From: an uncultured Lewinella sp.
Lineage (GTDB): Bacteria; Bacteroidota; Bacteroidia; Chitinophagales; Saprospiraceae
Direction of reading: 5' to 3'
Length of the DNA: 35,520 bases
Assembly (NCBI GenBank): GCA_937949535.1
Contig: CALEDI010000328.1
Span: forward strand, 1 to 35,520
Of the stretch, positions 21,909-24,623 are shown in pieces (the first letter of the stretch is position 1; every line of letters begins with the position of its first letter). The translations under genes were made by a program, and so were the position numbers. Under the pieces are notes generated by a model that made no database searches, was not told where the DNA came from, and saw only the letters and a program-made list of their open reading frames with translations.

Positions 21909-21932
21909 GGTCGAGCCTTTCCAAGGCGAGTT
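21909..21932. repeat. 24-bp direct repeat, left copy (beyond the 3' end of rtcB)
   Basis: GGTCGAGCCTTTCCAAGGCG followed by AGTT is identical to 24600-24623. It contains a small GCCTT/AAGGC stem. It lies 12 bases beyond the rtcB stop codon. Confidence 0.85.
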
Positions 21933-21944
21933 AGCCGCCAACCA

Positions 21945-23336
21945 TCACCGCTTCTTCTTCCGGCGGCGGCGGCCATAACCAGTATTGCCCGCCATGATGC
22001 AACCATACGGCATGATCCGATCTACGACCTCACCGAGGCCAAACTCTTCCATTTGGCGCTGAACGGCGTCGGCGTTTTTGTACGCAGACGGCAGTTCGGA
22101 GACATCGATGCTTCCGGTGAAGAAGCGGACATCAAGGCCAGCGGTTTCCTCATCGAAGACTTCCCGGACGGTCTTGTCCGCCTTGGTCTTGATGTGGGCC
22201 GTACGGCTCATGTTGCGGCCCGCGCCGTGGGGCGCGAAGCCAAGGTTCGTCTCCGTCGTTTCCCCCCGAACGATGAGGATGGGCTCGGCCATGTTCAGGG
22301 GGATGAGGCGAAGACCGGCCTTTGAATCCGGGACAAATTTGTCGTCTAACGGCGTAGCGCCCTTTGCGTGGTAGAAGAGGTCTCCGGACTTGAAGACGAA
22401 GTTGTGCTCGTTCCAAAAACGGTCCTTTGCACCTGCGTTCGCGCCCTCCTTAGTCGCGTCATGGAGAACGGTATGGTTCAGTTTCGTCCAGTCGCGAACA
22501 ATTTGGAGGGCCTCCCAGTAAGCTGCGCCCTCTTCGGTCTCGAACGGAATCCAGGCGTTTTTCTCCGGTGTGCGCGGAGAGAGTTCCTTGCGGAAACGCT
22601 CGGCCAACTTCATGCCCTGGCGGTATAAGTTGGCGCCCAAACCGCGCGAGCCGTGGTGGGTCACCATGATCGTATCGCCCGTAGCTTCGGAGCGGCCAAC
22701 GTAGAGGAAGTGGTTGCCGTCGCCCTGCGTACCGAGGTGGGTTCGAGCGCAGCTCAGGCCTTTTTCGTTGTTCAAAAACACGTTCTTGCGCATGCGCTCC
22801 AACAGTTCTTCGGGCAGGTCAAAGCGGTCCTTTCGGCCTCCGGGGCCGAAGTGCGTGATGGCGTTGGCCGCGTCGAGGATGGCCTTCGGCTCCGCGTCGC
22901 CAAAGTTAGTCATCATCACCGAGCAGCAAACATCGGCGGAGTGCATAGCCGGGTGAATGGCGTTGCGCGCAACCGCCACCCCACCAACGGGGATCTGGCC
23001 CGGAGGGCCAGCTGGGCAAGCATCCGGCATCACCGCGCCCGCAACGAGGGTGGGTGTTTTCATCAGCATGTCCATCGTTTTCTCAACGGAAGCAACGTTT
23101 TTAGCGTCCAGCTCCGTCTCGGCGCGGATGTTTTTATGGTACGCGAGTGGCTCCTCGAAGGGCTCGATCTCGTCTACCGGCTCAGGCGCGATGCCCTCTA
23201 GGTAGGTCTCCAATGCTGCGCCAGAAAGCTCCTGCTCGTTTGCGTAGGCGATGGCTTCGGCAAACCACTTTCCGGGCTTGTAGCCCAAATCAATCAACGT
23301 AGTGCCAGTAATGGGGGTAAGGGTAATTTCTTTCAT
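21945..23336 (-). CDS. rtcB: RtcB-type 3'-phosphate/5'-OH RNA ligase
   Basis: The 463-aa enzyme joins RNA 3'-phosphate or cyclic phosphate ends to 5'-OH ends using GTP and Mn2+. Motifs seen are [10 protein letters not shown] (metal Cys and Asp), [13 protein letters not shown] (matching the family GT-GGGNHF), [10 protein letters not shown], and [17 protein letters not shown] with guanylylated histidine H370. The tail ends in [11 protein letters not shown], a basic extension. The track starts 37 codons earlier inside repeat DNA, while [11 protein letters not shown] at 23336 fits the family. The divergent neighbour is a WYL-domain regulator, suggesting local control. A -7-like box (TACCTTGT, 23340-23347 minus) ends three bases before the ATG. 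Confidence 0.95.
22424..22446 (-). repeat. Dispersed 20-mer motif, copy 6 (inside rtcB)
   Basis: Read on the minus strand, the coding strand of rtcB, it is GGGCGCGAACGCAGGTGCAA followed by AGG and encodes GANAGAK. It has two core changes. Confidence 0.6.
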
Positions 23337-23374
23337 GCCACAAGGTATATTTCCAAGTGCGCAGTCTTTTTGCG

Positions 23375-23382
23375 TAGATTTG
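23375..23382 (+). promoter_or_regulatory. Perfect -7 promoter box for the WYL regulator gene
   Basis: TAGATTTG is immediately followed by TAGTAGGTTGCAGG. The whole repeat array would therefore form the 5' untranslated region of the regulator mRNA. Confidence 0.5.
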
Positions 23383-23566
23383 TAGTAGGTTGCAGGTTGC
23401 AAGTTGCAAGTTGCAGGTTCCGTCACACATGCGGCACGGCAGGCCATTCAACCTGCAACTTGCAACCTCCTGTAACACATGCTACACGGCAACCTGCAAC
23501 TTGCAACCCGCCTGTAACACATGCTACACGGCAACCTGTAACCTGCAACCTGCAACCTGCAACCTC
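23383..23566. repeat. GTTGCAG/CTGCAAC inverted array with internal 41-42 bp tandem units
   Basis: The left side has heptamers of the GGTTGCA/AGTTGCA type; the right side has the inverse (AACCTGC)n. Between them two near-identical units occur, 23449-23489 and 23490-23531. Each consists of CAACCTGCAACTTGCAACC then CTGTAACACATGCTACACGG. A partial third unit follows. The first block (CGTCACACATGCGGCACGG) is a diverged relative. The array fills the space between the divergent rtcB and WYL genes up to two bases before the WYL ATG. Confidence 0.85.
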
Positions 23567-23567
23567 T

Positions 23568-24584
23568 ATGCCCGCAAATAAAAACGCCCTCCTCCGCTAC
23601 CGCACCATCGACAAATGCCTCCAGAACCACGGCCGCAAATGGACGCTCAACGACCTGATTGAAGCTTGTTCCGATGCGCTGTATGAGTATGAGGGCAAGG
23701 ATACCTACGTCAGCAAACGCACCATTCAGCTGGATATTCAACTGCTGCGCAGCGACAAACTCGGCTACAATGCTCCCATCGAGGTCTACGAAAAGAAGTT
23801 TTACCGCTACGCTGACCCCGATTTCTCGATCACCGACGTACCACTCACGGAGGGCGACTTAGATGTGCTCTCCGAATCGGTGGCAGTACTGCGGCAGTTC
23901 AAGGATTTCTCTTTATTCAGCGAGCTCAATGGCGTAATCCAGAAGCTGGAAGACAAGATTTACCATGCGGCAGGTACCGAGCCGCCGGTTATTCACCTCG
24001 ACAAGAACGAGCAACTCAAAGGTTTGGCACACCTCGACGTTTTGTACCAAGCCATCACGAAGCGCATCGTTTTGAAGATCAGTTACCAATCGTTTTCAGC
24101 CCGACAGCCGAACGACATCGTCTTCCATCCCTATCTGCTCAAGGAGTTCAACAATCGCTGGTTTCTGGTTGGCCGGCGAGCGGATCACAAACCAATCCTC
24201 ACCCTTGCGCTAGATCGGATAGCCAGCATCTCCCCCGACCTGAAGACCGACTATTTGCGCGACGACTTCGACGCCGACACCTATTATAAAGACACTTTTG
24301 GGGTGACCGTACTCGGCGTACCGCCCATCGAAGTACGTCTTTGGGTCAACCGCCAGAACGCGCCCTATGTGCTCACCAAGCCTTTCCACCATTCGCAACG
24401 CCTCATTGAACGACGCAAGACGGGCGGGATTGAGATCGCTTTCACCGTCCACCACAATTTTGAACTGGAGCGGTTGCTCTTGGGCTTTGGCTCGTCCGTT
24501 GAGGTGTTGGGGCCGACGAGGTTGAGGCGGAAGATGAAGAAGGTTTTGGGGGAGGCGCTGGGGCATTATGAGGAGGCTCGGTAG
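23568..24584 (+). CDS. WYL-domain transcriptional regulator
   Basis: The 338-aa protein starts MPANKNALLRYRTID right after the repeat array; the track start lies upstream inside repeats. Residues 5-75 form a winged-helix HTH (RYRTIDKCLQN, VSKRTIQLDIQLLRSD). Residues 140-230 form the WYL domain (LYQAITKRIVLKISYQS, FHPYLLKEFNNRWFLVGRR, LALDRIASI). The C-terminal WCX-like part is VEVLGPTRLRRKMKKVLGEAL. WYL proteins bind nucleic acids or nucleotides and often control nucleic-acid repair and defence genes. Divergence from rtcB suggests it regulates RNA ligation in response to RNA damage; this is inference. Confidence 0.9.
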   Translation: MPANKNALLRYRTIDKCLQNHGRKWTLNDLIEACSDALYEYEGKDTYVSKRTIQLDIQLLRSDKLGYNAPIEVYEKKFYRYADPDFSITDVPLTEGDLDVLSESVAVLRQFKDFSLFSELNGVIQKLEDKIYHAAGTEPPVIHLDKNEQLKGLAHLDVLYQAITKRIVLKISYQSFSARQPNDIVFHPYLLKEFNNRWFLVGRRADHKPILTLALDRIASISPDLKTDYLRDDFDADTYYKDTFGVTVLGVPPIEVRLWVNRQNAPYVLTKPFHHSQRLIERRKTGGIEIAFTVHHNFELERLLLGFGSSVEVLGPTRLRRKMKKVLGEALGHYEEAR

Positions 24585-24599
24585 ACAGGTCTTCATCCT

Positions 24600-24623
24600 G
24601 GTCGAGCCTTTCCAAGGCGAGTT
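24600..24623. repeat. 24-bp direct repeat, right copy (beyond the 3' end of the WYL gene)
   Basis: Identical to 21909-21932 over all 24 bases. It lies 15 bases after the WYL stop codon. Confidence 0.85.

Follow-up and report, generated by a model that had tools for sequence, protein, structure and literature searches.

The window, as the whole stretch of DNA analyzed here (35,520 nucleotides) is called, contains a divergent pair of genes, rtcB and a gene for a WYL regulator, bracketed by the same 24 bases. This arrangement raises the question of what the repeats are and whether they mark the arrival of the gene pair. The 24-mers are very probably two of about 55 copies of a REP (repetitive extragenic palindrome) hairpin family, whose likely cognate RAYT gene lies at C176 of the same genome (G000), and they are not the signature of a cassette acquired recently.

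Repeats and genes of the rtcB-WYL block

The 24-mer GGTCGAGCCTTTCCAAGGCGAGTT occurs in two exact copies, both on the plus strand, with a start-to-start spacing of 2,691 bp. The perfect direct repeat, 2.69 kb apart, that was described in the earlier note is thus exact, and the coordinates also confirm its gaps of 12 and 15 bases beyond the rtcB and WYL stops. No occurrence of the 24-mer was found in 100 shuffles of the window, with up to three mismatches allowed. The features of the block and its surroundings are as follows.

21190..21786, minus strand: ORF of 198 amino acids (aa), family unassigned; direct neighbor of the band 7 gene in relative G018
21909..21932, plus strand: 24-mer, putative REP copy 1; a single A separates the tag GTCG from the stem GCCTT/AAGGC, which has the loop TCC; 12 bp lie between the rtcB stop and this copy
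21945..23336, minus strand: rtcB (RNA ligase family; Pfam PF01139, 1.8e-35)
23568..24584, plus strand: WYL/WCX transcriptional regulator (Pfam PF13280 and PF25583), divergent from rtcB
24600..24623, plus strand: 24-mer, putative REP copy 2, identical to copy 1; 15 bp lie between the WYL stop and this copy
24631..24643, plus strand: small accessory hairpin GTTGCAAAGCGAC, 9 nt past the REP core of copy 2
24688..24707, minus strand: third REP-frame hairpin, 64 bp past copy 2 and in the opposite orientation to it; belongs to another class (GTGG.A.GGGCC.TCC.GGCCC.GA)
24789..26357, minus strand: band 7/SPFH protein, right neighbor (Pfam PF01145)

These three REP frames are the only ones in the 35-kb window, and all are at the rtcB-WYL block. 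The frame of the third hairpin also flanks RAYTs of other species, and hairpins resembling GTTGCAAAGCGAC come after 6 of 54 REPs in the window's own genome. An Rfam search of the window gave no match. The idea of a duplicated coding fragment, drawn in the earlier note from the minus-strand reading LALERLD, is not supported: the reading is formally possible in one frame, but neither copy is part of a gene. The 198-aa ORF has homologues that begin at its ATG, which indicates that the REP is not its N-terminus.

A dispersed hairpin family and its probable cognate RAYT gene

The genome from which the window comes is a draft metagenome-assembled genome (MAG) that totals 4.09 Mb in 335 contigs and is 88% complete. 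With up to three mismatches allowed, the 22-base core of the repeat was found in 50 places in it, and the general pattern CGAGNNNTTCCANNNCGAG was found in 59, with no matches for the reversed-pattern control. The consensus of 56 aligned copies is GGTCGAG-SCYT-TCC-ARGS-CGAGTT, with GG ahead of the core in 53 to 54 copies and T after it in 49. The window 24-mer spans exactly this consensus, beyond which the flanks have no similarity among copies. Many of these copies lie away from rtcB and WYL, the finding that the earlier note had named as contradicting its proposal of a transferred cassette with an integration-type duplication.

The stems fall into subfamilies, GCCTT/AAGGC, GGCTT/AAGCC, GCCCT/AGGGC, and GGCCT/AGGCC, to which relative G015 adds GGACT/AGTCC, and their letters vary among copies and relatives while complementarity is kept. 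In the covariation analysis, 92.9% of cells were paired and 35 cells had changed on both sides, with a score of 0.485, compared with 0.130 in shuffled data (0 of 500 shuffles) and no more than 0.142 when the register was slid. Among copies from the genus retrieved by a search without a stem constraint, all three free pairs were complementary in 16 of 27, compared with 3.0 in shuffles. Only 9 of 54 copies lie inside ORFs of at least 150 aa, the measure by which extragenic status was decided without a gene caller, whereas 77% of background positions do. The family is thus a dispersed, mostly extragenic palindrome within the 20 to 40 nt range of REP elements, and its variable but complementary stems, many copies, and extragenic spread are what characterizes REPs.

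REPs are expected to flank a RAYT gene in inverted orientation, and such a gene is present in the same genome.

G000:C176:8193-8852, minus strand: RAYT (Y1_Tnp gene), 220 aa, identified by Pfam, NCBIfam, and motifs

This gene has four plus-strand copies (55-bp spacing) on one side and four minus-strand copies (approximately 102-bp spacing) on the other. The protein matches Pfam Y1_Tnp (PF01797) at 5e-5 with 23.8 bits, against a cut-off of 23, and has the HUH motif NHLH and the catalytic tyrosine motif WYVLENP. Its sole NCBIfam match is the REP-associated tyrosine transposase NF047646 (2e-16), and the score of 60.2 bits is below the equivalog cut-off of 80, so the protein is classed as a divergent Y1 transposase of RAYT-like type, outside the equivalog. 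A scan of proteins from named genomes gave only two RAYT relatives, one in Neolewinella persica (61%) and the other in a Lewinella MAG (78%), which place the genome in the genus Neolewinella/Lewinella. An inverted repeat of 53 bp with 89% complementarity (L066:2412-2464 and 3813-3865, in C176) surrounds the gene together with its REP clusters.

The strict CGAG frame had few matches around the RAYTs of relatives and was then broadened to GTNG-A-stem-GA. Of the 21 RAYT loci that were examined across the genus, 11 have hairpins in the strict form of this frame, GTNG-A-G(stem)loop(stem')C-GA, and REP-frame hairpins number about 42 in roughly 70 kb of RAYT loci versus 8 in control regions totaling 352 kb. 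Most of the remaining loci carry other palindromes. At loci L118, L122, L126, and L129 of relatives, the RAYT genes have around them large palindrome arrays of a quite different kind, which do not fit the GTNG-A frame.

Several points speak against the REP/RAYT reading. The tetranucleotide 5' of the stem, one base off it, is GTCG, which differs from the canonical GTAG/GTGG; about 55 copies is a modest number; and the C176 protein scores under the curated cut-off of the NCBIfam model. In the genus, GTAG, GTGG, GTTG, and GTCG are all found in the same frame around RAYTs.

By analogy with the TnpA_REP systems studied so far, the HUH/tyrosine enzyme would recognize the single-stranded hairpin, with its 5-bp perfect stem and TCC loop, together with the GTNG-type tetranucleotide ahead of it. 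It would cut beside the hairpin and spread the REP via single-stranded intermediates, and copies would then build up in intergenic gaps. The REP copies were probably spread by a domesticated transposase, and the pair at rtcB and WYL would be two of them, each in the spacer past a stop codon at one end of a block that was rearranged locally.

Relation to known REP systems

REP/RAYT is a known kind of system, to which members from Neolewinella/Lewinella (Bacteroidota) are added here. Inverted REPs that flank RAYTs and coevolve with them are established (PMC2817692). The closest likeness is with the Group 3 REPtrons of Stenotrophomonas (Sm) and Marinomonas (Mb), in which the REPs are perfect palindromes with short loops that stand close behind GTAG and border tnpA_REP, and above all with those of Mb, which have a 5-bp stem and a 2-base offset from GTAG (PMC8266576). 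The present family shares the 5-bp perfect stem, the short offset from the tag, and the position beside a RAYT gene. However, it has GTCG, a one-base offset (A), the loop TCC, and GA after the stem, its host belongs to the Bacteroidota rather than the Gammaproteobacteria, and its activity is predicted by analogy. It also resembles the GTAG-tagged REP superfamily in its terminal tetranucleotide beside a stem-loop, short loops, dimers, and grouped elements, and GTCG fits the degenerate form GTMG described for that superfamily (PMC3733652). The main text of that paper has no mention of Lewinella, Saprospira, or Haliscomenobacter, and none of the papers covered by the literature search links Lewinella with REPs.

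TnpA_Y1 subclass 2.6 is found mostly in Bacteroidetes and is described as bordered by atypical secondary structures that also occur at other genomic sites (PMC6006769). The HUH motif NHxH and the tyrosine motif Y..NNP are shared with subclasses 2.4 and 2.6, a likeness that comes from motifs rather than formal placement, whereas the WQ motif of these subclasses reads WA, WE, or WN in the Lewinella/Neolewinella genus. Genomes of the genus hold several RAYTs, many with their own REP stems in a common frame and a varying third tag base (GTAG, GTGG, GTTG, GTCG). This variety offers a natural series in which the reading of tag and stem by TnpA_REP enzymes could be tested.

Origin of the arrangement around rtcB and WYL

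The rtcB and WYL genes are side by side in seven relatives from the genus (G014, G009, G004, G015, G019, G013, and G010), none of which has a strict REP frame beside the pair. With the window's own genome, the adjacency is found in eight genomes, which suggests that WYL regulates the neighboring rtcB; the two genes are divergent in seven of the eight and run in the same direction in G010. The gene order in the window's genome is glpD ... MCE - 198-aa ORF - REP - rtcB - WYL - REP - band7, and that in the sister G014 is glpD ... MCE - NnrE/D - rtcB - WYL. In G018, band7 directly adjoins the 198-aa ORF with neither rtcB nor WYL between them, the junction has no REP, and an rtcB of the same type was not found. 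The relatives compared are different species (G018 at 72 to 92% protein identity), and the junctions were compared by eye. These differences in gene order indicate that the neighborhood was rearranged, with REPs at both edges of the block in the window's genome. Either the rtcB-WYL pair or its neighbors may have moved, and the proximity of the pair to the MCE/MlaD gene in G014 as well argues that the pair stayed in place.

The composition of the pair is ordinary in GC and GC3 (GC3 of 0.73 for rtcB and 0.71 for WYL, versus 0.62 to 0.73 in neighbors), and identity to G014 is 87% for rtcB and 88% for WYL, compared with 88% for glpD and 81% for MCE. Composition and identity make a recent acquisition from outside unlikely, and the base composition gives no sign of horizontal transfer. 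Of the cassette proposed in the earlier note, the locus comparison therefore bears out one part, flanking genes that adjoin without the pair in G018 and REPs at the block edges; a recent transfer is unlikely, given that seven relatives keep the pair with no REP beside it, that it lies near MCE in G014, and that its composition is ordinary. Most likely, REPs entered intergenic gaps at a local rearrangement or participated in it.

Independent insertion of the two copies has a competitor, itself compatible with their REP identity, namely that recombination between REPs placed the block. An rtcB-WYL segment bounded by REP sequence, such as a circle excised with one REP, could have recombined with a REP between the 198-aa ORF and band7 to give the direct order REP-rtcB-WYL-REP, or a deletion between REPs could have fused WYL to band7. 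Such an event would fit the adjacency of band7 and the 198-aa ORF in G018, the by-eye match with G004 upstream of the 198-aa ORF, which reaches the start of the left REP, and the confinement of the window's REP frames to this block. In addition, both copies have the same subtype and orientation. A chance pair of this kind within 2.7 kb is expected about 0.02 times, by a rough estimate from about six independent loci of the subtype in 4.1 Mb, which mildly favors a local link, whether by recombination or by local copying, over insertion of each copy on its own; a pair of any REP clusters within that distance is expected roughly once per such genome. However, no closer relative has an intermediate arrangement, the pair may never have moved since it is already near MCE in G014, 24 bp of homology is short for RecA, and the REP-free junction of G018 belongs to another species. 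Recombination between REPs is a tentative explanation, clearly less probable than its absence.

It is very improbable that the RAYT moved the block itself, with direct REPs as left and right ends in the manner of IS200/IS605 and rtcB-WYL as single-stranded cargo, one case of REPs serving as ends for gene-sized segments. Direct REPs stand at both block edges, the genome carries a RAYT with the same REPs, and G018 has an empty site, but the pair is kept without adjacent REPs in the seven relatives, and movement of gene-sized cargo by TnpA_REP is not described in the portions of the literature covered. No other same-subtype REP pair brackets genes in the window's genome, the rest being singles or clusters, which leaves cargo movement by REPs without further support.

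A role as intrinsic terminators or 3' stabilizing hairpins of rtcB and WYL is just as hard to credit. Their closeness to the two stop codons (12 and 15 bp beyond them) would suit it, and the hairpin forms in the WYL-side RNA, but there is no U-tract, a terminator scan selects neither copy, the rtcB-side RNA folds no better than shuffles (z of -0.14), and the 24-mers are absent at the pair in relatives. Because both copies are on the plus strand, one of them is also antisense to the gene that it follows. The duplicated 3' hairpin of the earlier note is therefore correct as to the hairpin, which is a REP DNA element and not a terminator made for these genes. Least credible of all is a target-site or att-like duplication of a transferred cassette, since the perfect direct repeats at both edges are not confined to the element ends but have about 55 other copies away from rtcB and WYL, the block has no integrase or transposase gene, and neither its composition nor its identity to G014 stands out. 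Perfect short repeats around genes need a genome-wide count before they are labeled an integration scar.

Other features of the neighborhood were also observed. A NAD(P)HX epimerase/dehydratase gene adjoins MCE in G014, G007, and G018 and was not found in the window's genome (window positions 21184-21190), in which the 198-aa ORF may replace it or the gene may belong to the missing part of the MAG. The rtcB-WYL spacer (23387-23566) is full of the short units AACCTGCAACTTGCAAC and CACATGCTACACGGCAAC in inverted and direct repeats, and TGCAAC-type arrays like those of this spacer are present near the 198-aa ORF and band7 in G004.
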